From: Niabella drilacis
GTDB lineage: Bacteria; Bacteroidota; Bacteroidia; Chitinophagales; Chitinophagaceae
NCBI RefSeq assembly: GCF_900101395.1
Contig: NZ_FMZO01000004.1
Span: forward strand, 125,367 to 189,366
DNA: 64,000 nt
Direction: 5' to 3'
This document shows positions 4,679 through 54,628 of this stretch, piece by piece. Below the pieces are notes generated by a model. That model searched no databases and had not been told where the DNA came from. It saw only the letters and a program-made list of their open reading frames with translations. Numbering within the stretch: position 1 is the stretch's first letter; each line of letters starts with the position of its first letter. Both the position numbers and the translations under genes were made by a program.

Positions 4679-4706
4679 GGGGGCGGATCAGATCCACCCC
4701 TTTTTT
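4679..4706 (+). terminator. Probable intrinsic terminator of the S41 peptidase gene
   Basis: The stem pairs GGGG with CCCC and GGATC with GATCC, with one mismatch between the two helices, and is followed directly by six T. It overlaps the last codons of the convergent response-regulator gene, so the same bases have to encode its C-terminus. Confidence 0.55.
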
Positions 4707-7930: not shown

Positions 7931-8068
7931 GATGGTGATGGAAGGCGATAAAATACTTTGGAGAAGCCTGTATTAAAGGTTAAATTGCAAGAGCCGGTAT
8001 TTTTTGAGATGCCTTAACATTTCATTGTTTACTTTTATTTTTTGTTTATCACCAGATTTGTACCACTC

Positions 8069-37233: not shown

Positions 37234-37281
37234 ACTTATTAATTATTTTAAAAACTTTGTTAAATTTGAAATAACATTTTT
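37234..37281 (+). promoter_or_regulatory. Shared 48-bp promoter/operator, copy A (ROK gene)
   Basis: Begins ACTTATTAATTATTTT and contains a TAAATTTG -7 box at 37261-37268 overlapping a GTTAA-N7-ATAAC near-dyad. 44 of 48 positions match copy B and 41 of 48 match copy C, with the first 21 identical in all three. It ends 4 bases before the ROK start codon, so the predicted leader is very short. This fits autoregulation by ROK, which is an inference from position. Confidence 0.7.
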
Positions 37282-37284
37282 GTA

Positions 37285-38493
37285 ATGCAAAAACGATTGC
37301 AATATAAACACCTGATCTTTAGGGAATTTTATTACGCCGGATCCCTGTCCTGTGCGGAGCTCAGTTCCCGTATCGGGAAAAGCATTCCCTTAACCACTCA
37401 GATGATCAATAACCTGATCAAAGAAGGGGTCGTGGAGGAAAACGGGCTGGCGCCTTCGAACGGCGGCCGGCGTCCTGCCCTGTATTCGGTAAAACCGGAT
37501 GCCATGTATGTGGTTGCTGTGGCAATGGACCAGATGATCACCCGGATTGCCATTGTTGATTTTCATAATAAACCGGTAGGCGCTATTGTTCAGCATGAGC
37601 TGTTGCTGGCCAATAACCCCGGTGCATTGACGCAGTTAAAGAACGCTATTGAGCAGGCCATTAAGAAATCGAAGATCCCGAAGAAAAAAGTGCTGGGCGT
37701 AGGTATTGGCATGCCCGGGTTCATTGATGCGGCGCAGGGGATCAATTATTCATTCTTTCCCAATGAAAGCAGCAGTATTACGGCTTTCCTGGGCAGCGCT
37801 TTGGAAATACCGGTTTACATCGATAATGATTCCAGCATCATTGCGCTGGCGGAGCATCGTTTCGGAGCGGCAGCCGGCGCCCGCAATGCTATGGTGGTGA
37901 ACCTGGGCTGGGGTGTGGGATTGGGCCTGATTCTCAACAACCAGCTGTACCGGGGTGAGAGCGGGTTTGCAGGGGAATTTAGCCATATCCCCTTTTTTAA
38001 TAATAATAAGATCTGCTCCTGCGGGAAAAGGGGCTGCCTGGAAACGGAAACCTCGTTAAAGGTCATTATCGAAAAGGCGGAGCAGGGATTGAAACGGAAG
38101 GGGAGTACTTCATTACTGAAAAAGAACTTCCGTACAGGCGCCATCGAAAAGGACTGGCAGGCCATCGTGAAGGCAGCGCAATCGGGGGATGAATATGTGA
38201 TCCGGTTGCTTACGGCAGCGGGGTACGATATTGGACGGGGTGTAGCCGTGCTGATCCATTTGTTTAACCCCGAGCTGGTACTGCTGAGTGGCCGCGGGGC
38301 ACAGGCCGGGCGCATATGGCAGGCCCCGGTGCTGCAGGCGGTAAATGAACATTGTATCCTGCGTCTCGCTGAAAATACAGCTGTAAAGGTTTCGCAGATG
38401 GGAAGCCGCGCCGAACTGATCGGTGCTGCCGCGCTGGTACTGGAAAACCTGGTGCGTGGCAAAAGCAGGGAGCCAAAAAAAATGCTTATTTGA
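37285..38493 (+). CDS. ROK family transcriptional regulator
   Basis: Sugar-responsive regulator of 402 residues. The N-terminal winged helix (about 1-65) has YAGSLSCAELSSRIGKSIPLTTQMINNLIKEG. The ROK/sugar-kinase-like domain has GIGMPGFI, a YIDNDSSIIALAEHRFG segment, and the zinc motif CSCGKRGCLE (Cys244, Cys246, Cys251). Repressors of this type (NagC, Mlc, XylR) release DNA on binding a sugar or sugar phosphate. An in-frame stop 15 bases upstream fixes the start region. It is 42 bases before susC-1 and shares a 48-bp promoter sequence with susC-2 and susC-3, so it probably controls all three units and itself. Confidence 0.93.
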   Translation: MQKRLQYKHLIFREFYYAGSLSCAELSSRIGKSIPLTTQMINNLIKEGVVEENGLAPSNGGRRPALYSVKPDAMYVVAVAMDQMITRIAIVDFHNKPVGAIVQHELLLANNPGALTQLKNAIEQAIKKSKIPKKKVLGVGIGMPGFIDAAQGINYSFFPNESSSITAFLGSALEIPVYIDNDSSIIALAEHRFGAAAGARNAMVVNLGWGVGLGLILNNQLYRGESGFAGEFSHIPFFNNNKICSCGKRGCLETETSLKVIIEKAEQGLKRKGSTSLLKKNFRTGAIEKDWQAIVKAAQSGDEYVIRLLTAAGYDIGRGVAVLIHLFNPELVLLSGRGAQAGRIWQAPVLQAVNEHCILRLAENTAVKVSQMGSRAELIGAAALVLENLVRGKSREPKKMLI

Positions 38494-38520
38494 TTATAGA
38501 ATCGACCGGAACACCAACAA

Positions 38521-38534
38521 TTTTAACGATTAAA
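38521..38534 (+). promoter_or_regulatory. Leader motif TTTTAACGATTAAA, copy 1
   Basis: Present just before susC-1 and conserved at 43800-43813 and 49376-49389. Each copy is preceded by a CCAA(A)CAA/CGA element. Probably part of the susC mRNA leader (translation initiation or RNA binding), since it lies downstream of the predicted start sites at copies 2 and 3. Confidence 0.5.
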
Positions 38535-38535
38535 A

Positions 38536-41500
38536 ATGAGAAAAATGAAGAAGAGACACTTACTGCTCGTTTTCTTTACTACGCTGCTATGTTGTGGAAA
38601 CCTGCTTGCCCAGGTAAAGCGTACAATTACGGGCTCCGTTACAGATCCAGATGGAAGACCCATACCCGGTGCTTCTATTATTGAGAAAAGCACTTCCAAT
38701 GGAGTGGCTGCAGATGAACAGGGCCGCTTTACCATTAACGTAACAGGCAATGCTACCCTTGATGTAAGCGCTGCCGGGTTTGAACCCATCGAACAAAAAA
38801 CCGGCAACTCCAATGAAGTGACCATTATCCTGAAATCGGTTGAAAAAGCCGAGGATGAGGTGGTGGTAACCGCGTTAGGAATAAAAAGGGATAAAAGGTC
38901 CGTTGGATACGCAGTACAACAGGTAAAGGGGAGCGATATTACCATAGCGGCTCCCGTAGATGTAGCCCAGGGATTGGCAGGAAAAGTAGCAGGCCTGAAT
39001 ATTTCCACTTCAAACGGCCTGGGCAATGCATCTTCCCGCATAGTTATAAGGGGGAATAACTCGCTTAACGGCAACAACCAGCCGTTGATAGTAATAGATG
39101 GCGCTATCGTGGATAATACGCCTATTGCACAATCGGCTACCACGGGTACTGATATTTCTACGACGCGCGATTGGGGAAATTATTTAAGCTACCTTAACAT
39201 GGATAATATAGAAAGTGTATCGGTGCTTAAAGGACCCAATGCCGCAGCCTTGTATGGCGCCCGGGGCGCAAACGGGGTATTGCTGATTACCAGTAAAAAG
39301 GGTTTGAAAAAGAAGGGGCTTGGCATCGACTACAATTTTACAACCAACTTTTCAAATGTTTACCGGTTTCAGGATGTACAGAACGAATATGGCGGTGGAT
39401 TCGCTGCCGGCTTATGGTCGGCCAATCCGGAACTACCCAAAACAAAGAACGGTGAATATTACCTGCCCACCTTATATGGAGGCTCAAGTTATGCGACCGG
39501 CGGTACTGGTATTGGCGGTTATCATGGCTCAATCCCCGGAGGCTTTTATACCGCAGATATTTTCAGCTGGTTTGGCGCCAGTTCTTCCTGGGGGCCGAAG
39601 CTAAACGGGCAAATGGTGCGCTGGTGGGATGGCCAGTTAAGACCCTATTCCCCGCAGCCCGATAACCGGGAGGCTTACTACCGGCAGGCAAACGAAACCA
39701 CACACAACGTGTCATTTTCATCAGGATCCGAACTGGGCACGCTCCGGCTGGCTGCCACACGAACAGATGCTACCGCGGTTGTTCCCAATACAAATTATAA
39801 TAATACCAACTTTTCGCTGGGCTCACACGTAATTATTTCCAGAATATTAAATGCAGATGTAAACGTTGCGTACAATCAAAACTACCGGCTTAATACCCCC
39901 GAAATAGGCAGCAATAATTCCTGGTCAAAATTTTCGGTCTATGGGATGTCAAGAGAGTATAAGCCGTTGGAATTTGACCACTATAAAAATGCGGATGGTT
40001 CAAAAATTGACTTTGGAGCGGCCTATCCGCAGCAGGAATACAGCCGCGACTTATTCTGGTATTTCAATGAAAGGAATTCGAGGCTGAACAGGGATGAACT
40101 GATAAGTACTGTAAAACTGAATGCCGACATTACCCCATGGTTGAATGCATTTGTAAGAACATCAGCAAATCTGGTTGCCGAAAAATTCGAAACCATCAAT
40201 AATACAACCTCCGGCTATAATGGGGTAACTGGCGGTGGATATTCAAAAGAACTGAATAAGAATAAGTTTCTGAATACCGATGTTATGGTTACGGCTCATA
40301 AGGATAATTTATTCTTTCAGGACTTTAACGCCAGCGCATCGGCGATGTACAATTCCTATTCTAATAAATCGACGGGTGTAGCGGGCTCAAACGGAGGAAC
40401 CTTTATTGTGCCGGGCATTTATAGTTTGGGTAATATAATTGACGCCGACAGAGCCGATAAAAATAAATATAATACTTCTGAAAGAAGATATGAGGTGAAA
40501 TCGGAGGGGGTGTTGGGGATCTTAAATCTTAGCTACAACAACTATTTATATTTGAACCTTACAGCGCGAAACGACTGGAACTCCACGCTGTCGCCTGATC
40601 AGAATTCAACATTTTATCCTTCAGGCGATTTAAGCTTTGTTTTTTCTGATGCTTTCAAAATGAGGTCGAGCGTGTTTTCCTATGGAAAACTGAGATTGAG
40701 CTATGGTAAAAGCGCCAATGCATCTGATCCTTACCTGTTAGGTGCTAATTATGATGTAAGTTCATACGGAGGACAACCCACCTATTCCTTTCCCAATGTT
40801 TTAAGGCCGGATAAGCTGGGCTTCCAAACATCGACCTCAACGGAAATAGGCACCAGTCTTGGTTTTTTAAACGACCGTATCAATCTTGATTTTAGTTTTT
40901 ATAATATTCTGTCAAAAAACCAGATCCTGGCAGCTGATATTGCCCCCTCTTCAGGCGTAAATAGCATCACCTTTAATTCCGGTGAATTGAGAAACCGTGG
41001 CTTCGATTTTACAATTAATGCAGGCATTATTAAATCAGCGGATTTTGGCTGGAACCTCATCCTTAATGGCGCAAAGAATAACAACTTTGTAGTATCGCTG
41101 GCAGACGGAATTAAGGAGCTGCGGATCGGTGATATTTTTGGAGACCTGGGTGTGTTTATGAAAGTATCGCCCGGAGAAAAATACGGAGCTATTTATGGTA
41201 CCGACTTTTTGAGGGATGATAATGGGAATAAAATCATCACAAATGTAAAGGATGCCTCCGGAAATGTAGTGGGTACGCTTTATAAAGCAACGACCAAACC
41301 CGTCATTATTGGTAATGCGTCTCCCAAGCTTACCGGTGGTGTTGGTAATACATTCCGGTATAAAAATTTCAGTTTATATGGTTTGGTTGATTTTAAAGTG
41401 GGCGGTGATATCTATTCCTTTGACCATTCAACAGCCATGGGTAGCGGTATTTCACCAGCCACACTGAAAGAGAGAGATGGCGGAGGTTTGCCCTATACGT

Positions 41501-41910
41501 TCCCCGATGGAACCACCGCCAATGTGGGCGTAATAATGGATGGCTATAACGTCGATGATGGCAAGATGAATGATAGAGTGGTAAACCCTATTTACAAATA
41601 TGCGGGGTCGTACACCGGCTGGACACATTTAAACAGGCCGAGGAGCCTATCTGTTTTTGAAAATACCTGGGTTAAAATGAGAGAATTGGCGCTTTCTTAT
41701 ACGCTGCCCGCGGCCATTGCATCAAAAACTAAAGTGTTTCAAAGCCTCTCCTTATCATTGATAGGCAGGAACTTATTCTATTTTCACACCACATTGCCAG
41801 ATCATTTGAATCCGGAAGCCATTATGGGGACCGGCAATGCACAGGGTTTACAATGGTCTGCCTTTCCAAGTATACGTACACTTGGATTCAGTTTAAAAGC
41901 ACAGTTTTAA
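38536..41910 (+). CDS. SusC/RagA family TonB-linked outer membrane protein 1
   Basis: Outer-membrane transporter of 1,124 residues that carries glycans or oligosaccharides bound by its SusD partner. A signal peptide (cleavage after LLAQ) is followed by a carboxypeptidase-D-like regulatory domain (RTITGSVTDPDGRPIPGA, about 30-110), the VVVTALGI linker with the TonB-box-like region, the plug (ALYGARGANGVLLITSKKG) and the beta-barrel to the C-terminal aromatic residue. An alternative start three codons later (MKKRHLLL) is possible. It lacks an N-terminal STN (FecR-contact) domain, so anti-sigma signalling is not indicated. It follows the ROK gene by 42 bases and lies 20 bases before susD-1. Confidence 0.95.
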   Translation: MRKMKKRHLLLVFFTTLLCCGNLLAQVKRTITGSVTDPDGRPIPGASIIEKSTSNGVAADEQGRFTINVTGNATLDVSAAGFEPIEQKTGNSNEVTIILKSVEKAEDEVVVTALGIKRDKRSVGYAVQQVKGSDITIAAPVDVAQGLAGKVAGLNISTSNGLGNASSRIVIRGNNSLNGNNQPLIVIDGAIVDNTPIAQSATTGTDISTTRDWGNYLSYLNMDNIESVSVLKGPNAAALYGARGANGVLLITSKKGLKKKGLGIDYNFTTNFSNVYRFQDVQNEYGGGFAAGLWSANPELPKTKNGEYYLPTLYGGSSYATGGTGIGGYHGSIPGGFYTADIFSWFGASSSWGPKLNGQMVRWWDGQLRPYSPQPDNREAYYRQANETTHNVSFSSGSELGTLRLAATRTDATAVVPNTNYNNTNFSLGSHVIISRILNADVNVAYNQNYRLNTPEIGSNNSWSKFSVYGMSREYKPLEFDHYKNADGSKIDFGAAYPQQEYSRDLFWYFNERNSRLNRDELISTVKLNADITPWLNAFVRTSANLVAEKFETINNTTSGYNGVTGGGYSKELNKNKFLNTDVMVTAHKDNLFFQDFNASASAMYNSYSNKSTGVAGSNGGTFIVPGIYSLGNIIDADRADKNKYNTSERRYEVKSEGVLGILNLSYNNYLYLNLTARNDWNSTLSPDQNSTFYPSGDLSFVFSDAFKMRSSVFSYGKLRLSYGKSANASDPYLLGANYDVSSYGGQPTYSFPNVLRPDKLGFQTSTSTEIGTSLGFLNDRINLDFSFYNILSKNQILAADIAPSSGVNSITFNSGELRNRGFDFTINAGIIKSADFGWNLILNGAKNNNFVVSLADGIKELRIGDIFGDLGVFMKVSPGEKYGAIYGTDFLRDDNGNKIITNVKDASGNVVGTLYKATTKPVIIGNASPKLTGGVGNTFRYKNFSLYGLVDFKVGGDIYSFDHSTAMGSGISPATLKERDGGGLPYTFPDGTTANVGVIMDGYNVDDGKMNDRVVNPIYKYAGSYTGWTHLNRPRSLSVFENTWVKMRELALSYTLPAAIASKTKVFQSLSLSLIGRNLFYFHTTLPDHLNPEAIMGTGNAQGLQWSAFPSIRTLGFSLKAQF

Positions 41911-41930
41911 CTCTTTAATTTCTATTAGCA

Positions 41931-43544
41931 ATGAAACGAATTATAAAATCAAAAACAATATTATACTCCATACTACTGGGTAGTATAATACTTTCCACTA
42001 CTTCTTGCAATAAGGACTTTGGAGATATAAATAAACCCTGGGATAATAAAGTATATACGCCTACAATACCAGGTCTGTACACCAGTATTGCTTCAAGCAT
42101 GGCGGAAAATGGAAGACCGCTGTTCACTTCACACCTGTACCAGGCAAGCCAGTTAGCAGCGTCTTATTCGGCATCCGGCTATCGGTTGGATGATAAATCA
42201 AGCGCCTCCTGGTATAATTATTACGGGGCATTAATTGACTATAATAAAACAATGGAGCTGATAGAAAAGGACTCGGCTGTTGCCAGGATGACCAATATCA
42301 AGGCCATGTTAAAAACATTAATATCTCTTAAAACGCTCGCTAATACTACTTATTACGGTGATATGCCTTATTCAGAAGCCGGAAAATCCTATTTGGGAGC
42401 ACAATATTATCGACCGGTATATGACAAGCAGCAGGATATTTTTTCGAATGCTCTTAAAGAGCTAAAGTGGGCAATTGATAATTTTTCTACTTCGACAAGC
42501 CAGATGTCGCTTGGTTCGGCGGACGTTTTGCTTCAGAATGACCTGTCGCTTTGGGTAAAATTTGCTAATTCTGTAAGACTGCGCTACGCGCTTATTTTAC
42601 GTAACAAAGATGCCGCCGGCGCCGATGCGATTATTGCTGATGCCCTTTCAAAGCCTCTTTTAGAGCCCGCTGAATATATTAGTATAAATCCGGCGAAAAT
42701 AACGGGTTTGCAAATAGACCGGTCAGGAACCTTCCGGGGCAACTCTTATATAAGAATGGGTTCCACAATCTGGAATGCCATGTCCTCCAGCGCTGCAACG
42801 GATGGTTCAGGGATCTATGACCTGCGCACAAAAATATTCTTTGAACCTAATAAGGCCGGGCAATGGAAGCCTTACCCGCAAAACCCACCTGCGGGCACAG
42901 AGGCGGAAACGGCCAACGGTGTTGTTGATGGAAAGAACAATGACCCGTATGCAGAGGCCAGAACTACGACATGGCTGGCGCCGGGAAACTACCTGTATTC
43001 TCCCCTCAATTACTACTATGTAGCAGACAGAACGATCCCCGACCTGATTATTACCGGCAGCGAAGTAAGTTTCTTAAAAGCCGAAATTTACAATCGTGGG
43101 ATTGGAGGGGTGGCCGCCAACCCGGCAACGGCCAAGCAATTTTACAATGCGGGAATAACGGAATCAGTAAAATTCTGGTACAAAGTGGCCAATAGCTCTA
43201 CTATTTGGGTGGTAAACAAGCCGGCTGCCGCACCTACTGATGGCGAATTATCCACCATGCTTGCCAATAGCAATGTCGCTTATAGTAATACCGTTGCTAC
43301 CGCTCTTACTCAAATTTACAGACAATCCTGGCTGGCTATGTTTCATCAACCGTATGATGCCTGGGTACTGCAACGTCGTACCAATTATGGTACGCCATTT
43401 ACACAGCTTGCTCCAACCAGTGAAGTGCTCGACCTGAACAAACTGATATATCCCCAGGCCGAAGCATCCAGCAACGCTGTTAACTGGCGGGCAGCTACAA
43501 ATGGCGCCGATGATAAATCAAAGAAACCCTGGTTTATGCCATAA
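41931..43544 (+). CDS. SusD/RagB family outer membrane lipoprotein 1 (SusD-like_2)
   Basis: Surface glycan-binding lipoprotein of 537 residues that forms the lid of the adjacent SusC. The lipobox ends at Cys26 (STTSC), followed by NKDFGDINKPWDN, typical of the SusD-like_2 branch. Tetratricopeptide-like helices and TYYGDMPYSEAG come next; YRQSWLAMFHQPYDAWVLQRRTNYG near the C-terminus matches the family. It starts 20 bases after susC-1. A strong terminator 55 bases downstream ends the ROK-susC-susD unit. Confidence 0.93.
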   Translation: MKRIIKSKTILYSILLGSIILSTTSCNKDFGDINKPWDNKVYTPTIPGLYTSIASSMAENGRPLFTSHLYQASQLAASYSASGYRLDDKSSASWYNYYGALIDYNKTMELIEKDSAVARMTNIKAMLKTLISLKTLANTTYYGDMPYSEAGKSYLGAQYYRPVYDKQQDIFSNALKELKWAIDNFSTSTSQMSLGSADVLLQNDLSLWVKFANSVRLRYALILRNKDAAGADAIIADALSKPLLEPAEYISINPAKITGLQIDRSGTFRGNSYIRMGSTIWNAMSSSAATDGSGIYDLRTKIFFEPNKAGQWKPYPQNPPAGTEAETANGVVDGKNNDPYAEARTTTWLAPGNYLYSPLNYYYVADRTIPDLIITGSEVSFLKAEIYNRGIGGVAANPATAKQFYNAGITESVKFWYKVANSSTIWVVNKPAAAPTDGELSTMLANSNVAYSNTVATALTQIYRQSWLAMFHQPYDAWVLQRRTNYGTPFTQLAPTSEVLDLNKLIYPQAEASSNAVNWRAATNGADDKSKKPWFMP

Positions 43545-43598
43545 GAAGGTAATGACGATGATGAAATAGCTATCGGTTTTAAGAAATAAAAGGATTTT

Positions 43599-43638
43599 AA
43601 AGCTGTTTGGGGAGTAAAGATCCCTGAACAGCTTTTTT
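43599..43638 (+). terminator. Intrinsic terminator after susD-1
   Basis: AAAGCTGTT pairs with AACAGCTTT, with a second inner helix GGGGA/TCCCT, and is followed by six T. It ends the ROK-susC-1-susD-1 transcript and makes a separate promoter for susC-2 necessary. Confidence 0.85.
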
Positions 43639-43708
43639 GTTTTTAGCGGCTGGCTGCCGGGTATGGCGGGGAAATAGGCCACGGGTGCATCATAAAAAAT
43701 AGTCACCA

Positions 43709-43756
43709 ACTTATTAATTATTTTAAAAACTTTATTAAATTCGTATTAACATTTTT
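43709..43756 (+). promoter_or_regulatory. Shared 48-bp promoter/operator, copy B (susC-2)
   Basis: Begins ACTTATTAATTATTTT, with a TAAATTCG -7-like box at 43736-43743 and an ATTAA-N7-TTAAC near-dyad. It differs from copy A at four of 48 positions and lies 68 bases before the susC-2 start. It probably holds the promoter and the ROK binding site. Confidence 0.7.
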
Positions 43757-43799
43757 TTACCAAATGGTTCTGCCATAGAAGCCCGGTAAGCCAAACGAT

Positions 43800-43813
43800 T
43801 TTTAACGATTAAA
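43800..43813 (+). promoter_or_regulatory. Leader motif TTTTAACGATTAAA, copy 2
   Basis: Identical to the 14-base motif before susC-1, and lies downstream of the copy B promoter, thus within the predicted 5' leader of susC-2. Confidence 0.5.
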
Positions 43814-43824
43814 ATAAGTAAAAC

Positions 43825-46800
43825 ATGCAGAAGAAACATGTATTGTTGGTGTTCTTTGCCCTTCTTTTGAGTTGTGGCAGTTTATTGGCCCAGGTAAAAC
43901 GTACGATTACGGGAATGGTCACCGACGATACCGGAGCCGCAATTCCCGGCGCTTCTGTTATTGAAAAAGGGACCGCCAACGGGGTGGCTGCCGATGAACA
44001 GGGCCGCTTTACCATTACAGTAGCCGCCGCTGCCACACTGGGTGTAAGTGCGGCGGGGTTTGAGACCACGGAATTAAAGCCGGGCAGCACCGGTGAAGTA
44101 GCGGTTACACTCAAATCGGCTGTGAAGTCGGAAGGGGAGGTGGTGGTAACGGCCCTGGGTATTTCAAAGCAAAAACGCCAGCTGGGTTTTGCTGTAACCG
44201 AAGTAAAAGGCGATGACCTGGCCAAAACCAACGAGGTAAATCCCATCAACGCGCTGCAGGGGCGCGTGGCCGGGGTGCAGATCGATATGGGGGGCGCCGG
44301 TGGGTTAATGGCCAACTCCAAAATTATTATCCGGGGCAACTCTACGCTGGGTAACAATAACCAGCCCATATTTGTGATCGATGGGGTGATCATGGACAAT
44401 GACCAGTTCGGCGGTAAAGGCCGGGATTTTGGCAATGATCTGAAGAATCTGAATATGGAGGATTTTGAAAGTGTTTCGGTACTGAAAGGCTCATCTGCGG
44501 CGGCATTGTATGGTTCAAGAGCCGTGAACGGGGTGATCCTGATCACCACCAAAAAGGGAAAGCAACGCAAAGGCGTTGGTATTTCCGTCAATCATTCCTT
44601 AAGCATATCCGATCCTTATGCCGGGCCAAAGTTCCAGAATGAATTTGGCGGCGGTACTGTTGGCGACTTTTTCACAGACGCAAGAGACCCGAATTATAAA
44701 TCAACAGAGCGGTGGACGACAAAAGTATTTCCAACCGACCCCGTAACCGGTAAACCTTATATTGACAGGGGTATTGGCCGTGAGCTGGAAAACTGGGGCC
44801 CCCGCATGCTGGGGCAGGACGTTATCAATTACGATGGCACTATGACGAAATATTTGCCGCAGCCCAATAACTTCCTGGATGTGTTCCAGAAAGGGATCGG
44901 CAATAATACTAATGTAGCCATTGATGGGGGTACAGACAGGTCCACATTCAGGTTTTCTTATAACCACAACCAGACGGAGGGGGTGGTAAGTAACAATCGT
45001 CTTTCCAAAAATGCCTTTGATTTGAGGGCTACCCATAAATTTACCAGCTTCCTGGATATGGATGTAAGCGTTGCCTATTCGGATTTTATGGGTTATAACC
45101 CACCCAGCCTGGGCGGCACAGATGCCTTTGCCTCCTATAATTTTGGTAAGCTGTACTCCTGGATGCTGCCGCGTAACTATGACACAAAATACTGGATGCA
45201 AAAAGAACATTATACCAGCCAGTTTGGCGGGGTGCCCAACCCGGCTACACCCGGGGAAACGAACCTGGCGCCCGAAACCCGGTTCTGGTTCTCCCTCTTT
45301 GAAAATAATTACATCCAGAAAGAGCAAATGCTGAGAGGCCGGGTGGCATTTACGATAAAACTGACAGATTGGGCCAGCCTGGTGCTGGATGGGAATATCA
45401 ATAATATCTATACCCGCAATGAAACCAAGGAACTGGGACAGGGCGTCGGTTTCACCGGTGGTTCCTACGCGCTGGGTTTTAAAACCAAGGAAAGCAATAT
45501 GCAGAAATGGATGCTGATGATGAATAAAGATATTAACCCGGATCTTTCTATTAATGGTTATATCGGGGGTGAGGCGCAACGTTATAAGACTACTTTTGAA
45601 AACAGTGCCACCAATGGCGGGTTGAGCTATCCCGGCAACTACTTCCTTGCAAACTCTGTGCTTCAGCCTACAACATCCGGGGGCATCAGAGACCGTAAAA
45701 CGTTGAATTCATTGTATGCAAGTGCCGATATCGCGTATAAGAATATGCTTTTCCTGCAGGCAACCTGGCGCGGCGACTGGAGCAGCGCGCTTACTTATAC
45801 TGATGGAACCGGGAACAATTTTTATAATTACCCCGCGGTTAGCTTGGCGTGGATATTTACAGAAATGCTTAAAGAAAGCAAGCCCGAATGGATCAGCTAT
45901 GGAAAGTTCCGGGCGAATATAGCCGCATTAGGCGGAGATACAGATCCTTTTAAAATAAATACCGGGTTTGCATTTAGCGGGTATAGTACGGCGGGAGGAA
46001 ACTCGGTGCCACTATCTACTTATAGCAGCAGTTCTGTATTACAGCCTAATCTTCAACCCCAGCGGAAAATTGCTAAAGAGCTGGGTATGGAAATGCGCTT
46101 TCTTAAAAGCCGTGTGGGATTCGATGTAAGCCTGTACCAGGATAATACCAGGAACCAGTTGCTGGATATCACCACACCGGTTGAATCGGGTGTGAACACC
46201 ATATTTATTAATGCAGGTAATATTCAAAACAAGGGTATCGAAGTTTCAATAGACGGTACGCCGGTCAAAGGCAAAAACTTCTCCTGGAATACGGCCTTAA
46301 CCTATGCCGTTAACCGCAATAAGATCGTGGACCTCTATCCCGGGAGAACGGAATATAACCTCCAGGCCAATATCGGGGAAATAAGCACCTGGGCTGTTGT
46401 GGGCAAGTCTTATGGCGTATTGAGAACGCAGATTCACTCAACTGCTTTCCAGGCCGTGGACGGGAACGGCAAACCGGTTGCTGACCCCAGGAATGGATTA
46501 CCCATACTGGCCTGGAGAAGCGATTCCAGGACGGCTTTCCCGGCCCGCAGCAATACCTGGCAGGACGTGGGCGATATCAACGCTAAGTTCCGGAGCGGCT
46601 GGGATAATACGTTTACCTACAAAAACTTTAGTCTGAATGTACTGCTGGATGCAAAGATCGGCGGTGACTTTGTAGCCCTCAGCTACCGGTATGGAACCCA
46701 TACGGGCGTCTTCCCCAATACCCTGCCTGGCCGCGACGCCCAGAACGGCGGCATTGTGTGGACCTCAAAGTATGCGAACGATGGGGGCACTTATGACGAC

Positions 46801-47238
46801 GGAATTATTCCGCAGGGGGTGTTTGCCCCGGGACAAAAAGTGGATAAGCCCGGTGGAGGCACCGCTGATGTAGGTGGTATGACCTACCAGGAAGCTTATG
46901 ATAAGGGGTTGGTAGAACCCTCCCATTTGCCGCAGTTTTATTATCGTTATGGTTCTTCTTCTACCGGTGTATCTGATTACTGGATCCTGAAAAATTCATG
47001 GATCTCTATGCGCCAGGTAGCCCTTTCTTATAATGTATCGCCCCGGATCTATGAGAGGCTGAAATTACGCGGGTTGTCTGTCTCTGCCGTAGGGCGCAAC
47101 CTGATGTACCTGTACAATACATTGCCGTACAACTTTAACCCCGAGTCGAATAATTCCAACAATACGGCGTATTCCGGCGAGGAAGGCTTTTTGCCGATGG
47201 TAAGAAACTTTGTATTTACTATAAGGGCAGCATTTTAA
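43825..47238 (+). CDS. SusC/RagA family TonB-linked outer membrane protein 2
   Basis: Outer-membrane transporter of 1,137 residues. The signal peptide is nearly identical to that of susC-3 (MQKKHVLLVFFALLLSCGSL). The regulatory domain (RTITGMVTDDTGAAIPGA), VVVTALGI linker, plug (ALYGSRAVNGVILITTKKG) and barrel follow. Its first 100 residues resemble susC-1 (GVAADEQGRFTI), but the barrel is different, suggesting a different ligand or oligosaccharide length. It has no STN domain. The promoter copy lies 68 bases upstream, and susD-2 follows 28 bases later. Confidence 0.95.
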   Translation: MQKKHVLLVFFALLLSCGSLLAQVKRTITGMVTDDTGAAIPGASVIEKGTANGVAADEQGRFTITVAAAATLGVSAAGFETTELKPGSTGEVAVTLKSAVKSEGEVVVTALGISKQKRQLGFAVTEVKGDDLAKTNEVNPINALQGRVAGVQIDMGGAGGLMANSKIIIRGNSTLGNNNQPIFVIDGVIMDNDQFGGKGRDFGNDLKNLNMEDFESVSVLKGSSAAALYGSRAVNGVILITTKKGKQRKGVGISVNHSLSISDPYAGPKFQNEFGGGTVGDFFTDARDPNYKSTERWTTKVFPTDPVTGKPYIDRGIGRELENWGPRMLGQDVINYDGTMTKYLPQPNNFLDVFQKGIGNNTNVAIDGGTDRSTFRFSYNHNQTEGVVSNNRLSKNAFDLRATHKFTSFLDMDVSVAYSDFMGYNPPSLGGTDAFASYNFGKLYSWMLPRNYDTKYWMQKEHYTSQFGGVPNPATPGETNLAPETRFWFSLFENNYIQKEQMLRGRVAFTIKLTDWASLVLDGNINNIYTRNETKELGQGVGFTGGSYALGFKTKESNMQKWMLMMNKDINPDLSINGYIGGEAQRYKTTFENSATNGGLSYPGNYFLANSVLQPTTSGGIRDRKTLNSLYASADIAYKNMLFLQATWRGDWSSALTYTDGTGNNFYNYPAVSLAWIFTEMLKESKPEWISYGKFRANIAALGGDTDPFKINTGFAFSGYSTAGGNSVPLSTYSSSSVLQPNLQPQRKIAKELGMEMRFLKSRVGFDVSLYQDNTRNQLLDITTPVESGVNTIFINAGNIQNKGIEVSIDGTPVKGKNFSWNTALTYAVNRNKIVDLYPGRTEYNLQANIGEISTWAVVGKSYGVLRTQIHSTAFQAVDGNGKPVADPRNGLPILAWRSDSRTAFPARSNTWQDVGDINAKFRSGWDNTFTYKNFSLNVLLDAKIGGDFVALSYRYGTHTGVFPNTLPGRDAQNGGIVWTSKYANDGGTYDDGIIPQGVFAPGQKVDKPGGGTADVGGMTYQEAYDKGLVEPSHLPQFYYRYGSSSTGVSDYWILKNSWISMRQVALSYNVSPRIYERLKLRGLSVSAVGRNLMYLYNTLPYNFNPESNNSNNTAYSGEEGFLPMVRNFVFTIRAAF

Positions 47239-47266
47239 TTTTATCACCAATTTTAATTCAATTCAG

Positions 47267-48931
47267 ATGCAACTCAAATCAAGATATATAATTGCAGGCG
47301 CATTGCTTTTAACAGGCTTTTCCTGCACAAAAAACTTTGGTGAACTAAATACAGACCCAACCATTGTTACTACCCCGGATGTAAAATACCTGCTCTCCTA
47401 CTCCCAGGATAAATTGGCCACTTATAACGGAGGTGAATGGATCTGGGAGGGGATGGAGCAGCTGTTCCGCTATACCCAGCACGTGAGCGCCAGTCCTTAC
47501 GAAATTACAAACAACGTAAATGCACGCTATGGTGTTTATTACAGCCAGATATTGCCCAACCTGTTTGAGATCCGGAGGCAGATCAGCACAAAGGCGGATA
47601 AAGACAATTACCAGAAAATAGCCGCCATTACCTATATCATCCAGGTACTGCATGGTATTAAAGTAACGGATATGAACGGCTCCATTCCCTACAGTGAAGC
47701 GGTGCAGGGCCGGTATGAAGGCAATTACAGCCCCGCGTATGACAGCCAGGAGGCACTGTTTAATACCTGGTTGTCCGAGCTGGACAGGTCCATCGGTATT
47801 TTGTCCAACACCAGCCTGGCGAACCAGGTAGATCCGGGTACTGCCGATATCTTTTATAAGGGCAGCTGGACCAATTGGGTAAAGCTGGCCAATACGCTCA
47901 AGCTGCGGATCGCTGCCCGGCTCGAAAACCAGAACCAGGCAAAAACGAAGGATATTTTCAAACAGGTGATGCAGGATGCCATTGGGCCCATTGATAATGA
48001 TAATGCGCAGCTGACCTATGCCAATCCCAACTTCTCACCTTTTGGCAATGATATCAATTACAGGAGCGTACGCTATGGCAGTACTTCCATCATCAATTTT
48101 CTGAAAAAGGCAAATGATCCGCGCCTGCCCGTTTATTTTGAAAGCAATGGGGTAAGCAAATCCCTGTTTACCGGCAATGGTGTAACACCGCCGGCATTTA
48201 TGGATATCAACGACCCCCTGATCCAGTACCAGGGAGCCCCGGCGGACTGGACCACCAATCCTACAGTGGCGGCCTACATCAGCAATGCAGTAACAATAGG
48301 CAGCAACAAATATTTTATGATTTCGCCTATTAACCGGAGATTTTTTTCTCCAAAAATGAATGGCCTCACAGGGAATTATACGGATGTGATGGTAACCAAT
48401 GCAGAATCCTGCCTGCAGGTGGCTGAGTTTATACAAAAAGGTTATGGCAGCGGGGTTAATACAAAGGGAAGCGCCGAAGACTGGTATAAGAAAGGGGTGG
48501 CCTCCTCCATCAAGACCATGAACAGTATTGCAGTGACGGCACAGTCTGCAACCGGATTTACGGGTGATGGCACCACGGTTATTAATAATTACCTGGCAGG
48601 CAGCAACGTGAAGTTTAACGGGGTAAATGACCTGGAGCGTATTTATACCCAGGCATATCTGAATTTTTACAGAAATGCCTGTGAAGCCTTTGTGTTCGTA
48701 CGCCGTACGGGGTACCCCAAAACGGCATCGGCCTACTATGCCCGTGAGCCGTTTACACAAACCATTCCACGTCGCTGGTGGACGAGCGATCCCGGCGAGG
48801 TGAACCGGAAAAACTGGGATGCGGCAATGACGGCGCAGGGCTTTACACCCAACGCGCAGGATGTACCCACGCTGAATACACAGCGGATCTGGTATGATAA
48901 AACAGCACCGGATTTTGGCGGGGGAAATTAG
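47267..48931 (+). CDS. SusD/RagB family outer membrane lipoprotein 2 (SusD-like_2)
   Basis: Surface lipoprotein of 554 residues, lipobox ending at Cys20 (TGFSC), followed by TKNFGELNTDPT, the usual SusD-like_2 start. HGIKVTDMNGSIPYSEAVQG and the C-terminal RIYTQAYLNFYRNACEAFVFVRRTGYP are characteristic. It is the partner of susC-2, 28 bases upstream. The ligand is unknown. Confidence 0.93.
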   Translation: MQLKSRYIIAGALLLTGFSCTKNFGELNTDPTIVTTPDVKYLLSYSQDKLATYNGGEWIWEGMEQLFRYTQHVSASPYEITNNVNARYGVYYSQILPNLFEIRRQISTKADKDNYQKIAAITYIIQVLHGIKVTDMNGSIPYSEAVQGRYEGNYSPAYDSQEALFNTWLSELDRSIGILSNTSLANQVDPGTADIFYKGSWTNWVKLANTLKLRIAARLENQNQAKTKDIFKQVMQDAIGPIDNDNAQLTYANPNFSPFGNDINYRSVRYGSTSIINFLKKANDPRLPVYFESNGVSKSLFTGNGVTPPAFMDINDPLIQYQGAPADWTTNPTVAAYISNAVTIGSNKYFMISPINRRFFSPKMNGLTGNYTDVMVTNAESCLQVAEFIQKGYGSGVNTKGSAEDWYKKGVASSIKTMNSIAVTAQSATGFTGDGTTVINNYLAGSNVKFNGVNDLERIYTQAYLNFYRNACEAFVFVRRTGYPKTASAYYAREPFTQTIPRRWWTSDPGEVNRKNWDAAMTAQGFTPNAQDVPTLNTQRIWYDKTAPDFGGGN

Positions 48932-49099
48932 CAACGGTCCTTTGGTATTGGGGCCGGGTGTGGCCCGGGAACTCTTTTTTTAGGAACTGCGGGACAGGAG
49001 AACGACAGTCTTTCCTGTTTTATGGGGCCGGACTGGTAAAAGGGCCAATCGCCCCGAAACCCGGGCGGACCACCCGCCGCTGATCATTTTTACTATGTT

Positions 49100-49170
49100 G
49101 CAGGCGATCCGGGAACGGCGTACATTGGAAATAGGTACGATGTTTTACCGGATCGCCTGCGGCATTTTTT
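49100..49170 (+). terminator. Long-stem hairpin, probable terminator after susD-2
   Basis: GCAGGCGATCCGG (49100-49112) pairs perfectly with CCGGATCGCCTGC (49148-49160). An inner helix CGTAC/GTACG lies in the loop, and GGCATTTTTT follows. The stem is unusually long and 170 bases past the stop codon, so a processed or regulatory RNA structure is also possible. Confidence 0.55.
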
Positions 49171-49271
49171 ACCCATATTCTGCAGTCGCCCGGTCTGGGA
49201 ACCCCCTTTTTCCCCTCCATTAGCCCCGGTTTTTAGGACCCGGAAGATTTTTTCAAAAAAAATGATTAACT

Positions 49272-49319
49272 ACTTATTAATTATTTTAAAAAGTTCGTTA
49301 ATTTTGTATTAACATTGCT
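49272..49319 (+). promoter_or_regulatory. Shared 48-bp promoter/operator, copy C (susC-3)
   Basis: Begins ACTTATTAATTATTTT, with a TAATTTTG -7 box at 49299-49306 and an exact GTTAA-N7-TTAAC dyad. It lies 80 bases before the susC-3 start. The first 21 bases match copies A and B exactly. Confidence 0.7.
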
Positions 49320-49389: not shown

Positions 49390-49399
49390 TGAGCGAAAA

Positions 49400-52300
49400 A
49401 TGCAGAAGAAACACGTATTGTTGATATTCTTTGCCCTTCTTTTGAGTTGTGGCAGCCTGTTGGCCCAGACAAAACGTACGATAACCGGTGTTGTAACCGA
49501 TAGCGAAGGCAAGCCGGTTCCGGGTGCTACGGTAGCGGTAAAAGGCACTACTAACGGAACGTCAACGGACACAGAAGGAAAGTATTCTATTGAGGTAAGC
49601 ACAAGCAACCCCGTTCTGCAAGTTTCCTCGATCGGGTTTGCAAACCAGGAAGTAAAGGTTACCCGGGAAGGGGCCGTTGATATTTCCCTTGCCAGTGCGG
49701 GAGAAAAAGCGGAGGAAGAAGTTGTGGTAACGGCGCTGGGGATAAAACGGGATAAAAAGTCTGTAGGTTATGCCATTACCTCGCTTAAAGGGGATGACTT
49801 AATGAAGGCTGGTAATACCGTCAACCCGTTAACAGCGCTTTACGGACAGGCTGCAGGTGTAGGCATTTCTGTGGGTTCTGCAGGCCCTACGGGGAGTGTA
49901 AACATTAAAATACGGGGTGCGGCAGGTTTACAAACCGACACTAAAACAAGACCGTTGATTGTTGTGGATGGCGTGCCTATTTATGATGAGAACTCCAATA
50001 TGGAATCCAGAGGATACGATCCGTTGAATTCTTTCGACTATGGATCGGGCATTAACGATATTAATGGGGAGGACATTGAGTCCATTGAAATATTGAAAGG
50101 TGCGAAAGCATCAGTATTATATGGTAGCAGGGCCGGAAACGGTGTGATCATGATCACTACAAAGAAGGGGGCAAAAACAAGAGGGTTTGGGGTAAACCTT
50201 TCCTTTCAATCAATGATGGAAACACCGGTTAGTTTCATTAACTGGCAAAACGAATACGGATCCGGTACAACGGTTTTTGATACCGTTTACGGTAAAGACA
50301 GGAGTGGTAATGCGGTAAGGATTATGAACAATGCCCGCCAGCAATTTGGTCCCAGGTTCGATGGCTCTTCCATTATGTTTTATGACAGTACGATGAGGAC
50401 CTACCAGGCATATCCCAATAACTGGAATGACCTTTTCAAAAACACGTTTACCAATATTTATAACGCGGCCATATCCGGAGCCAATGATAAAGGAAGTATG
50501 CGCCTTTCCTATACGAGGAAAGATTATAAGGGCCAGATGAATAATTTTTTCCAAAAGGACAATACGATAAGTTTTCATGGCCAGATGAATGTATCAGAGT
50601 TCGCAAATTTTGAGGTAAACACCAACCTGTACAATATTTCAACCCAGAACCGTTATCCCAATATAGCCCGGTTGGTTTCTTATGGTTTTAACAGGGATAT
50701 AGACTACCAGTCGCTGGCAAATAACTACAAAGATAGGCTGGGGCAGCAATACCAGTATAGCATGAATCCACTGGGAGTACCGGCGTCAGTAGGTGGCGAT
50801 AATACCGGCTATTTCGGGATGCTTTGGGACCAAAATGAAAATAAGAACATTGACAATAAGACCCACCTGGTAAGTTCGTTTAAATTCACATTGAAGTTTA
50901 CCCCCTGGCTTTCCTTAACCAGCAGTGCCGGTATCGATTATACTGATTGGGATTTTATTACAAAAGATGCCGTATCAAAAACAGTTCCAACTGTTAGCGG
51001 AGGGAAATACGCCTTTCAGAGAAAGAACTACAATGTATTAAATTATAACTCGTTCTTAAACTTTAATAAAACCTTTTCCAATGGGTTAGACCTGTTTGCT
51101 TTTGCTGGGCCGGAGTACAGTAAAACAACTTATAATGACGTTTCGCAGCAAACGGTTGGAGGGTTGTTGTACCCTAACTGGTATGATATTACTGCCGGTA
51201 TTTCGAAATCGGGCGATTTTGGCCAGACAGGAGGCACAAAGCGTACTTCCCAGGTTTTATATAGTGTTTTAGGATCTGCTTCCCTGGGCTATAAGAGCAC
51301 GTACTATTTGGAGTTGTCTGCACGAAATGACTGGTCTTCCCTGTTACCTCCGAAGTACAATTCTTACTTTTATCCAGGTGCTTCCGCTACATGGAATTTT
51401 AGCAATAACCTGAAACTGCCGGATCTTAATTATGGTAAGTTCAGATTTTCCTGGGCTAATGTAGGACGGGGTGCTCCTTATCCTTATTTTGCTTATCAAT
51501 CTTATGGTTTAGGTGTTGCCGGAACTTCACAGGTTCCTACGGTTTATGGCCCCACGTCGCTGTTTGCCGGGGATATCAAGCCCGAGCGGAACAATGAATA
51601 TGAAGTGGGCTTCAACACAAGGTGGTTTAAGAAAAAGCCGTTAGAAGTAGACTTCTCATTCTACACTGGTAATGTATATGATCAGATCATGGCATTAAAC
51701 CTCACTAACTCCACTGCATTCTCAAATATTAAGCTGAATGCTGGTAATGTAAAAAAATGGGGATATGAGTTGTTTGTAAAATACAGCCCGATATCGAATG
51801 AGAAGCTAAGATGGGATGTAACCTTTAATGCCGCCAACCAGCGGTCTAAAGTAGTAAAACTCTATCCGGGTATGACACAGTATGCCATTACAGGAAGCGG
51901 GGCCTATTCTATTATGGCAATTGAAGGAAAACCGATCGGTGATGTTCAGGCGTTTGATTATTTAAGAGATCCCAGCGGAAATAAGATTGTTGGCAGCACA
52001 GGTCTTTATAGCCCGGATAAAACAAAGCTGATAACGGTAGCAAATGTTAATCCTGATTTCATAGGTGGATTTGGTACTGATTTTTATTATAAAAGCTTTA
52101 ATCTTCACCTGGGATTTGATTATAAATTTGGCGGTACCTATCTTTCCTATTCTAATTACTATTTGCTGGGGAACGGTTCTGTGGAGGAGTCACTTAAATT
52201 CAGGGACGAGGCTAACGGAGGCCGTGCTTACTACATAGACGCCAGCGGAAAGAAAATTCCCTGGCAACATAACCAGCCCGCTCCTGCCGGTGCTGTCAAA

Positions 52301-52705
52301 GGAAGGGTATATCATGATGGGGTTATACAGCCAGGTGTAAAAGAAGTAACTGACGGTAGTGGAAATACGAGCTATGTACCCAATGACGTCATGATAAGTG
52401 CTGCTGATTATTATGGACAGTTTATACATGATATGAGTGAGTGGTTTCAACCGGATATGTTAACAAAGAATGATTATATTAAATTCAGGGAAGCTTCTTT
52501 GATGTACACACTGCCCAAGACATTTGTTAATAGGATAGGGTTTCAAAAAATTGCGGTTTCTTTAATTGCCAGAAATCTGTTTTACTTATACAAGACGATC
52601 AAACAGATCGATCCGGAGTCGGCGTTGGGTAGCAACTCATTTGTTGAATACTCCCCATTCCCCCAAATGCGTTCAGTGGGCCTAAAACTGGATATGAGTT
52701 TCTAA
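49400..52705 (+). CDS. SusC/RagA family TonB-linked outer membrane protein 3
   Basis: Outer-membrane transporter of 1,101 residues. Signal peptide as in susC-2, then the regulatory domain (RTITGVVTDSEGKPVPGATV), a VVVTALGIKRDKKSVGYA linker close to that of susC-1, the plug (VLYGSRAGNGVIMITTKKG) and the barrel ending RSVGLKLDMSF. The barrel is distinct from the other two and its DNA is slightly more A+T-rich than susC-2. It has its own promoter copy 80 bases upstream and lies 20 bases before susD-3. Confidence 0.95.
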   Translation: MQKKHVLLIFFALLLSCGSLLAQTKRTITGVVTDSEGKPVPGATVAVKGTTNGTSTDTEGKYSIEVSTSNPVLQVSSIGFANQEVKVTREGAVDISLASAGEKAEEEVVVTALGIKRDKKSVGYAITSLKGDDLMKAGNTVNPLTALYGQAAGVGISVGSAGPTGSVNIKIRGAAGLQTDTKTRPLIVVDGVPIYDENSNMESRGYDPLNSFDYGSGINDINGEDIESIEILKGAKASVLYGSRAGNGVIMITTKKGAKTRGFGVNLSFQSMMETPVSFINWQNEYGSGTTVFDTVYGKDRSGNAVRIMNNARQQFGPRFDGSSIMFYDSTMRTYQAYPNNWNDLFKNTFTNIYNAAISGANDKGSMRLSYTRKDYKGQMNNFFQKDNTISFHGQMNVSEFANFEVNTNLYNISTQNRYPNIARLVSYGFNRDIDYQSLANNYKDRLGQQYQYSMNPLGVPASVGGDNTGYFGMLWDQNENKNIDNKTHLVSSFKFTLKFTPWLSLTSSAGIDYTDWDFITKDAVSKTVPTVSGGKYAFQRKNYNVLNYNSFLNFNKTFSNGLDLFAFAGPEYSKTTYNDVSQQTVGGLLYPNWYDITAGISKSGDFGQTGGTKRTSQVLYSVLGSASLGYKSTYYLELSARNDWSSLLPPKYNSYFYPGASATWNFSNNLKLPDLNYGKFRFSWANVGRGAPYPYFAYQSYGLGVAGTSQVPTVYGPTSLFAGDIKPERNNEYEVGFNTRWFKKKPLEVDFSFYTGNVYDQIMALNLTNSTAFSNIKLNAGNVKKWGYELFVKYSPISNEKLRWDVTFNAANQRSKVVKLYPGMTQYAITGSGAYSIMAIEGKPIGDVQAFDYLRDPSGNKIVGSTGLYSPDKTKLITVANVNPDFIGGFGTDFYYKSFNLHLGFDYKFGGTYLSYSNYYLLGNGSVEESLKFRDEANGGRAYYIDASGKKIPWQHNQPAPAGAVKGRVYHDGVIQPGVKEVTDGSGNTSYVPNDVMISAADYYGQFIHDMSEWFQPDMLTKNDYIKFREASLMYTLPKTFVNRIGFQKIAVSLIARNLFYLYKTIKQIDPESALGSNSFVEYSPFPQMRSVGLKLDMSF

Positions 52706-52725: not shown

Positions 52726-54429
52726 ATGAAAAGATTATTAATAATACTATTAGGAGCCGCAGTCTGTTTCACTTCTTGTGAACGGGATCTCGCAGAGCAG
52801 TTTAAAGATCCTTCAAAAGTTGATCCTCCAACCGGGAATTTGTTTGCAGGAATGTTTACAGGGATGGTTTACGAGTGGAAACTCTATGTAAAAGATTACG
52901 GTGAATATTGGTGGGAGAATGATGGGAACACGCTCTCCAATTATGCTCAGATAAATCATCGGTATATTACTTCAAGATATGCATGGTATAGCGATTATGG
53001 TGACTTAGTAAATGAAAATGGATTTTACTCTACGGACAACGGTGCCATGAGCCATTTTAATGCACACTACACGCGCATGAAAGAGTGGGCTATAATGCGG
53101 GATGGTATTGAGCAATTGACTGGAAGTGCCAAAGATGAGGTGCAGGTGTTTTTCCAGCTTGCAACCGTAATGAAAGACGTGTGGGCGCTCAGATGTGTGG
53201 ATCTGTTTAATAAGATTCCTTATTTCGATGCGATGAAGGGGAACCAGGGCGTTTTATATCCTAAGTATGATGATCCCAAAGAGATATACATATCGGTGCT
53301 GAATGATTTTAAGGATATCGCTGCAACATTGAAGGATAATTATAACAAAATGTCTGCAGATGGTAAAAGCCTTTTTGTTAAACAGGATATTGCATTAAAA
53401 GGAAATGTTGATCAATGGGTACAATATGTGAATGCGCTAAGATTACAGTACGCCATTAAACTGGCGGGCGTGGACGAGGCTACCGCAAAACCTCATATTG
53501 CAGAAGCTCTGGGCAACCTGCCTACCTCCGATTTAGCGTTTCCTACTTATACTACAGACAATGGCGGTGGCGGTGGAACCTGGCTAAGGGGGGTTTATGA
53601 AAGAAGCTTTGTACACTTTATGCCGGACTTGCTGATGAGGAATATGAACTTTGCAGATAGTTCCTATAATGAAGGAGGCGTTGATGATCCTCGCTTACCG
53701 GTATTGATAATGCCTACAAAATATGGTGACTACCGGTCTGTAAGTATGAACGCAGACTCTAATGCAAAGTACTATAATGCGGGAGATACCTATTATACCG
53801 CCGCTGACAATATTGATGCAGCACTTTCCATGAATGGAAAATCAGAGTATAGCATTGTTACATTTGCTATGAATGCGCCTAATTTCCCGGCGGTGATGAT
53901 CACGCTTGCCGAGGTCGACCTTCTAAAGGCCGAAGTTGCCATTAAAGGGTATGCAACAACGGATAAAACGGCAGCAGATTATATAAAAGACGCGGTGGTG
54001 CATTCCTGTAATTTTTGGTATAATATCAATGATCTTAACAGAACCTTCCGCCCAGACAAACCTGCACTGCATCCGGTGAAATCGACGAGTGATATTGAGA
54101 CGTATTCGAATAAAGTGCGAACAAAATTCGTCGCGCAAACGGGCGTCGAAAACCAAATGGAAGTACTGATGCAGCAAAAGTATATTCATCTCAATATATC
54201 CAACCAATATGAATTGTTCGCTGAACTTCGCAGAACGAGACACCCATTGTTGGATCCGTTTGTGTTTAATGGTGTTGTTATGAAACCATGCCCCGAAAGG
54301 ATTAAATATCCTTCAACAGAGCTGCAGACCAACCAGGAGGAGTTCTTAAAAGTGGGTGCTGATAATAATTATACAACCCCTATATTCTGGGTACCGGCTG
54401 CTAAGAAAGGTGTTAGTTATTATAGGTAG
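52726..54429 (+). CDS. SusD/RagB family outer membrane lipoprotein 3 (SusD-like_2)
   Basis: Surface lipoprotein of 567 residues with lipobox Cys18 (CFTSC) and a following ERDLAEQFKDPSKVDPPTG segment. VMKDVWALRCVDLFNKIPYFDAMKG and QKYIHLNISNQYELFAELRRTRHP match the SusD-like_2 branch. It is the partner of susC-3, 20 bases upstream. A terminator 75 bases downstream separates it from the GH3 gene. Confidence 0.92.
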   Translation: MKRLLIILLGAAVCFTSCERDLAEQFKDPSKVDPPTGNLFAGMFTGMVYEWKLYVKDYGEYWWENDGNTLSNYAQINHRYITSRYAWYSDYGDLVNENGFYSTDNGAMSHFNAHYTRMKEWAIMRDGIEQLTGSAKDEVQVFFQLATVMKDVWALRCVDLFNKIPYFDAMKGNQGVLYPKYDDPKEIYISVLNDFKDIAATLKDNYNKMSADGKSLFVKQDIALKGNVDQWVQYVNALRLQYAIKLAGVDEATAKPHIAEALGNLPTSDLAFPTYTTDNGGGGGTWLRGVYERSFVHFMPDLLMRNMNFADSSYNEGGVDDPRLPVLIMPTKYGDYRSVSMNADSNAKYYNAGDTYYTAADNIDAALSMNGKSEYSIVTFAMNAPNFPAVMITLAEVDLLKAEVAIKGYATTDKTAADYIKDAVVHSCNFWYNINDLNRTFRPDKPALHPVKSTSDIETYSNKVRTKFVAQTGVENQMEVLMQQKYIHLNISNQYELFAELRRTRHPLLDPFVFNGVVMKPCPERIKYPSTELQTNQEEFLKVGADNNYTTPIFWVPAAKKGVSYYR

Positions 54430-54504
54430 GCAATTCCCTTAATGACCTGTCGGAAAATGGAAGAGGGCATTAAGAATTATTAGATACACACAATTGATTT
54501 TATC

Positions 54505-54540
54505 AGAGGCTGTAATCATAATTGAGCACAGCCTCTTTTT
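54505..54540 (+). terminator. Intrinsic terminator after susD-3
   Basis: AGAGGCTGT pairs perfectly with ACAGCCTCT around a 14-base loop, followed by five T. It also shows that the longer GH3 reading frame, which starts inside it, is not the real start. Confidence 0.85.
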
Positions 54541-54628
54541 ATTTGCTTTGAACGTCCGAAATAAAGGGTTTATTCAACGCGTTCTCCTTATTAAACCGGA
54601 ATCAGTAACTTACCCGCTATTAATAGTG

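Follow-up and report, generated by a model that had tools for sequence, protein, structure and literature searches.

A 48-bp promoter element with a candidate ROK operator, repeated before three predicted operons of a SusCD locus in Niabella drilacis

The stretch of Niabella drilacis DNA analysed here (64,000 nucleotides of contig NZ_FMZO01000004.1; hereafter the window) contains a locus in which a gene for a ROK-family regulator is followed by three susC/susD pairs and a GH3 glycosidase gene, and in which a 48-bp element occurs in three copies, termed A, B and C. Copy A precedes the ROK gene, and the gene order is an MFS transporter gene in reverse orientation, ROK, susC-1, susD-1, copy B, susC-2, susD-2, copy C, susC-3, susD-3 and GH3 (Table 1). 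All three SusC proteins exceed the cut-off of TIGR04056, all three SusD proteins match SusD-like families and the GH3 domains are present, i.e. the locus, with its tandem susC/susD genes and a glycosidase, is a SusCD polysaccharide utilization locus. The regulator matches PF00480 (E 1.4e-42) and PF13412 (E 3e-05) in Pfam, and its best solved relatives include Lmo0178 (query residues 18-392) and Mlc (12-390). Its translation contains CSCGKRGCLE, which fits CxCGxxGCxE, the zinc motif of ROK-family repressors. It is neither NagC nor Mlc proper according to the NCBIfam equivalog models, which it matches with 175.9 bits (cut-off 650) and 149.2 bits (cut-off 530), respectively. In BLASTP alignments the three SusC proteins are 30-33% identical in pairs and the SusD proteins 22-25%; with SusC proteins this dissimilar, kinship of the genes is by itself insufficient to explain a common promoter.

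The three copies, all direct and on the + strand, span 37234-37281 (A), 43709-43756 (B) and 49272-49319 (C), and they match at 44/48 (A-B), 41/48 (A-C) and 41/48 (B-C) positions, with the same first 21 bases in all three. A preliminary description of this DNA had reported these copies with the same A-B and A-C values, and the likeness is far from chance, as after shuffling of the intergenic regions concerned no 48-base match exceeded 31, 32 and 31 positions for the three pairs (300 shuffles each). The reported distances of 68 and 80 bases to the ATGs of susC-2 and susC-3 were recovered as well, whereas copy A ends 3 bases, not 4, before the ATG of ROK. It had further been argued that differing flanks mark the element as a functional site rather than a recent duplication. 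This holds for A-B and A-C, where 2-7/24 flanking bases are identical in most of the compared segments, rising to 9-12/24 in the AT-rich segment just upstream. It does not hold for B-C: once gaps are allowed, the leader and the first 23 codons also align well, the first 23 amino acids differ at a single position, and 19 of the 22 identical ones are specified by the same codon, compared with 128 of the 327 identical residues beyond residue 40. The leader and signal-peptide DNA common to susC-2 and susC-3 (43756-43900 and 49319-49475) is thus far more alike than the rest of the genes, which is likely to reflect gene conversion or a common 5' cassette. Because homology continues past the element in this pair, recombination may account for part of the similarity of B and C.

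Table 1 Predicted promoter and operator features, genes of the locus and other regulators of the window.
Feature	Coordinates	Strand	Remarks
Operator dyad A, ACTTATTAA-TTATT-TTAAAAACT	37234..37256	+	predicted; one mismatch to ACTTwTTAA-N5-TTAAwAAGT; -39..-17 of ROK promoter
-7 box TAAATTTG of ROK promoter	37261..37268	+	predicted; transcription start about 37273
ROK-family regulator, 402 aa	37285..38493	+	N-terminal winged helix-turn-helix (HTH) and ROK sensor domain, from Pfam domains and solved relatives
susC-1	38536..41910	+	42 bp behind ROK, presumably same operon
susD-1	41931..43544	+	SusD-like families
Operator dyad B	43709..43731	+	predicted; one mismatch
-7-like box TAAATTCG before susC-2	43736..43743	+	predicted; one base off TAnnTTTG; start near 43748
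susC-2	43825..47238	+	TIGR04056 above cut-off
susD-2	47267..48931	+	SusD-like families
Operator dyad C, ACTTATTAA-TTATT-TTAAAAAGT	49272..49294	+	predicted; exact
-7 box TAATTTTG before susC-3	49299..49306	+	predicted; start near 49311
susC-3	49400..52705	+	TIGR04056 above cut-off
susD-3	52726..54429	+	SusD-like families
GH3 glycosidase, PA14 and Fn3-like domains	54494..57304	+	64 bp behind susD-3, presumably same operon
LuxR-type response regulator	4688..5320		
MerR-type protein	8042..8755		

The element combines two parts at a fixed distance from each other. Its conserved part is a 23-bp inverted repeat, ACTTwTTAA-N5-TTAAwAAGT, which lies at about -39 to -17, directly upstream of a -7 box of the type TAnnTTTG. 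Promoter positions follow the numbering of the Flavobacterium johnsoniae -7 element, T-12 to G-5, and the TAnnTTTG type corresponds to the primary sigma consensus (PMC6847099). As described before, the box stands at the same place in all copies, 27 bases after the start of the element, with copy B deviating by one base. The same distance separates the dyad start from a -7-type box in all 18 strong sites which we identified in 17 Niabella genomes, copies A-C included (at site L071:7875 a chance match also occurs further forward, at 18, and the 27-base distance was read directly from the sequence). A different near-dyad, GTTAA-N7-TTAAC, had been assigned to each copy, but it is exact only in copy C. 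It covers -14 to +3, and of 14 sequences 12 to 14 retain its inner TTAA arms, while its outer pair is G-C in only 6/14 and A-T in 2. We rank it second on account of its lower symmetry score (0.56 against 0.71 for the main dyad), its variable outer position and its overlap with the -7 box and the presumed transcription start.

The element is confined to this locus in the genome. A 23-base core with 22 fixed bases, allowing up to 3 mismatches, was found at 3 places in the window (0 expected) and likewise at 3 places in the whole 6.1-Mb genome, all at the locus, whereas the reversed control gave none. When the core was shortened to 19 bases and 2 mismatches were tolerated, 3 further places appeared, which is background level (4 for the reversed control), and there was no sign of ROK or susCD among the listed open reading frames (ORFs) near them. 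For the comparison across species we used a matrix trained only on the 13 promoters of close ROK genes (12 distinct rows), scoring the best 150 candidates per genome in the 17 Niabella genomes and the best 30, with stricter filters, in 195 genomes drawn from the family, so that weak sites may be missed. In the Niabella genomes the scores of 18 places ranged from 37.8 to 50.6 bits, and the other 16 listed reached at most 20.2 bits (14.8-20.2). Of these weaker matches, one in G011:C4 overlaps an ORF of 559 aa, and others are the place in G000:C29 and its counterpart in G006. The strong sites comprise the 13 training promoters and five susC promoters outside the training set, all in ROK loci: copies B and C of this genome (G000) and one site each in G011, G010 and G005. 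Among the 195 genomes, including three other Niabella that all lack a close ROK gene (G004, G007, G009), matches at E <= 0.001 were limited to the three sites of this genome and a single further one of 22.4 bits. The preliminary description would have been refuted if the sequence had turned up at many genes unrelated to ROK or SusCD; neither this genome nor the 17 Niabella nor the 195 family genomes yielded such copies.

The distribution of the dyad alone is in line with this. Allowing one mismatch or none, the 17 genomes contain 31 occurrences, compared with 14 of the reversed control, and every one of the 14 exact matches falls at a ROK or susC promoter within these loci. The 17 one-mismatch places divide into 4 among the strong sites, 2 upstream of more distant Niabella ROK genes (about 51% identity; G001 and G007), 5 at one promoter of an extracytoplasmic function (ECF) sigma gene and 6 elsewhere.

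The element also accompanies a particular group of regulators. At least 41 of the 59 genomes searched have a ROK match at E <= 0.001, and a close clade (at least 72% identity) comprises 13 genes in 9 Niabella genomes. The ROK identity is 92% in N. aurantiaca and 90% in N. pedocola. Across the 17 Niabella genomes, every one of these 13 genes has the element before its start. When five close ROK orthologs were compared in 25-bp bins, 18-25/25 positions were identical between -50 and 0, 13-19/25 in the next bin and 1-18/25 from -200 to -75. The retention of the element next to varying upstream DNA, together with the differing flanks of copy A, points to a functional site.

We therefore propose, with a probability of about 0.76, that the 48-bp element is a sigma-A-type Bacteroidota promoter carrying a 23-bp dyad operator for the neighbouring ROK repressor, which would control three operons. 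The operator would take up the -33 region and the spacer of the promoter, and with a centre at about -28 it would fall between the -33 region and the -7 box, a position suited to repression by occlusion. Without inducer, a ROK dimer would occupy copies A, B and C and so keep RNA polymerase from transcribing ROK-susC1-susD1, which includes autoregulation, susC2-susD2 and susC3-susD3-GH3. A sugar from the imported glycan, perhaps freed by the GH3 enzyme, would then bind the ROK domain and release the protein from the operator. In this circuit we infer the binder (ROK), its repressing action, where transcription starts, how far the operons extend and the inducer. A ROK operator between -33 and -7, acting on its own gene and on three uptake units, had already been suggested, and this main inference is supported by the element standing before every one of the 13 close ROK genes, by strong matches being confined to ROK-SusCD loci and by a position in which a repressor would block the promoter. 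The earlier interpretation as a whole is partly supported, as its near-dyad is the weaker candidate and its argument from the flanks fails for B and C. Comparative genomics thus gives good support to the prediction of a local ROK regulon in which each of three operons is preceded by an operator copy, and it provides a concrete operator candidate for ROK control of multiple SusCD systems in this genus of the Bacteroidota. A literature search of one library returned no printed account of ROK control in Niabella.

Several observations weigh against this proposal. The symmetry of the dyad is modest for AT-rich DNA and was equalled in 14 of 300 column shuffles, and the training sites all stand before ROK, which in part presupposes a linkage to this gene. 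Five of the 9 close-clade genomes (G006, G008, G012, G015, G016) have strong sites only before ROK. No copy precedes the susC-2 ortholog of G016 (24/40, control maximum 25), and upstream of the G005 ortholog there is a weak remnant at best (28/40, control maximum 26). Outside the close clade the signal fades: for 31 more distant ROK promoters, 6 dyad matches were reached in at most 2% of 200 letter shuffles (L080, L083, L084, L085, L090 and L103, from six other Niabella genomes), 3 were borderline at 2.5-5% (L081, 2.5%; the first ROK of L087, 3%; L096, 5%) and 22 were unremarkable. Promoter sharing between ROK and susC or susD is likewise weak or absent in these distant loci, where only L079 (26/40, maximum 24), L103 (29/40, maximum 28) and L091 (25/40, maximum 24) passed 40 controls.

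The modest symmetry is also what would be expected if the element were merely a conserved strong promoter of three operons, with ROK binding elsewhere or not at all, an explanation that we regard as unlikely. It would account for the -7 box, which lies within the element at fixed spacing and is nearly invariant (7 of its 8 columns). However, conservation extends beyond this box, with 17 of the 23 dyad columns invariant among 12 ROK promoters, and a general promoter would be expected to recur in the genome, which the core does not. In 379 kb of Niabella DNA the half-site ACTTTTTAA is as frequent as its reversed control (17 each; 200 letter permutations gave a mean of 7.8 and a maximum of 33), and on this result, together with the restriction of the core to the locus, we reject a general genomic repeat or general promoter.

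We consider it still less probable that the copies are products of recombination or gene conversion which keep the susC units exchangeable and have no operator role, comparable to the repeats of the Bacteroides fragilis susC shufflon. The codon-level likeness of the B and C leaders and signal peptides, as well as mosaic susC genes elsewhere in the genus (see below), would be in line with such a history, but copy A has only the element in common with B and C, while its flanks differ, and in the five close ROK orthologs the element is kept where DNA further upstream is not. The features of a susC shufflon were not seen either, since all copies lie on the + strand and no recombinase was present among the 33 window proteins scanned with Pfam, which are part of the ORFs, a separate inverted-repeat search not having been made. 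Binding of the element by another regulator, e.g. an ECF sigma factor or the LuxR-type or MerR-type protein of the window (Table 1), is very improbable, as the -7 box is of the primary sigma type (PMC6847099), the Pfam scan reported no STN signalling domain in SusC-1, -2 or -3, the other window regulators are about 29 kb or more distant and the element follows the ROK clade.

The proposed circuit has counterparts among known ROK systems. ROK regulators are described as often having palindromic sites, and of the 11 operators predicted for NagR, 10 overlap promoter elements (PMC9599254). The RokA site is reported to have a T-rich left and an A-rich right end, and the sites of RokB, CysR, RafR, Mlc, NagC and Thermotogae regulators are similarly organised (PMC4856308). 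Like NagR of Bifidobacterium (PMC9599254), RokB of Streptomyces (PMC4856308) and Mlc and NagC of Escherichia coli, the Niabella regulator is a ROK protein with an N-terminal winged HTH, and it is predicted to use a near-palindromic operator with a T-rich left and an A-rich right side, which overlaps the promoter and occurs at its own gene and at uptake genes. Unlike theirs, the Niabella sites lie in a Bacteroidota promoter with the -7 box TAnnTTTG and before SusCD outer-membrane pairs, and their half-site is ACTT/AAGT. Within the Bacteroidota, the Bacteroides thetaiotaomicron regulon paper includes NanR (BT0433) as the one ROK regulator in its Table 2, likewise with a sugar regulon predicted by comparative genomics (PMC3878776); the type of circuit is thus already known, and the present one is a new example. 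NanR is assigned to sialic acid and N-acetylglucosamine, whereas here three susCD pairs and a GH3 gene of one locus are concerned, with an operator copy before each of three operons. A dedicated regulator beside susCD is also found in the SusR-like and hybrid two-component control of Bacteroides polysaccharide utilization loci, but the motifs of these systems are given as direct repeats (PMC3878776), as opposed to an inverted repeat and a ROK protein here.

The susCD content behind the same ROK frame varies between species, and eleven susC pairs were compared. The susC-2 of G016 (within L073, 1724-10572) is 89-95% identical to susC-2 of the window beyond residue 110, while its first 70 residues are 86-95% identical to those of its neighbour, G016 susC-1, and only 45-63% to those of the window gene. 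Similarly, susC-1 of G010 and of G005 share all of their first 30 residues (28 by the same codon) with 51% identity of the bodies beyond residue 250. On these alignments, the susC genes of these loci are mosaics, with similar 5' ends on different transporter bodies, which, if read correctly, would show how new uptake systems are wired into an existing circuit. As in the B. fragilis susC/ragA shufflon (PMC5729914), sequence around the susC start is common to several susC genes while the transporter bodies vary; the shufflon uses inverted repeats and an invertible promoter, whereas the Niabella copies are direct and each has its own promoter, so that the resemblance is one of outcome, not of mechanism. 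We tentatively envisage a plug-in receptor bank, although we would not favour it at present, in which a fixed control frame, made up of the ROK operator, the leader, the signal peptide of susC and in some cases its N-terminal domain, would stay in place. Recombination inside the conserved 5' end would then swap the susC barrel and its susD from species to species. New uptake systems would in this case fall under the resident repressor without evolving a new operator.

Separately, at L068 (G005), positions 813-1050 contain the operator, the leader and an apparent susC signal-peptide start before a different susC that seemingly has its own leader, an arrangement that looks like the insertion of a new unit behind an old control region. 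In the same genome, another inverted repeat, ATTGGATAT ... ATATCCAAT, was noticed by eye over the weak element remnant upstream of 14480 in L067, before the susC-2 ortholog, and a different regulator may be in charge of this gene.

As to the substrate, the closest models of the GH3 enzyme are the xylosidase Xyl3A, other beta-xylosidases and BglX, every one below its cut-off, and a beta-linked glucose or xylose oligosaccharide is our guess. An Rfam search of 35700-58000 at the gathering thresholds gave 0 matches to structured RNAs. The ECF sigma gene with the one-mismatch dyad (G000:C29:84458, the same in G005, G006, G010 and G011) was considered as a fourth member of the regulon and set aside as probably unrelated, because a related stretch can be aligned in Niabella without the close ROK clade. 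The conserved, promoter-like stretch before this gene, with its one mismatch to the dyad, covers L144 1960-1999 (G000:C29:84459-84498).

The promoters of a third Niabella ROK clade (L097-L100) have AAAACTTnTTAAAAnTTTTTTnTAAGTnTT in common, a related dyad that is one base longer. The divergent MFS transporter of the window (35874-37103, - strand) resembles tetracycline-efflux families (350.8 bits against a curated cut-off of 475), and in G010, G005, G006 and G015 (L065/L066, L067, L069 and L071) two tandem ROK-susC units, each ROK with its own operator variant, stand beside the same MFS gene.

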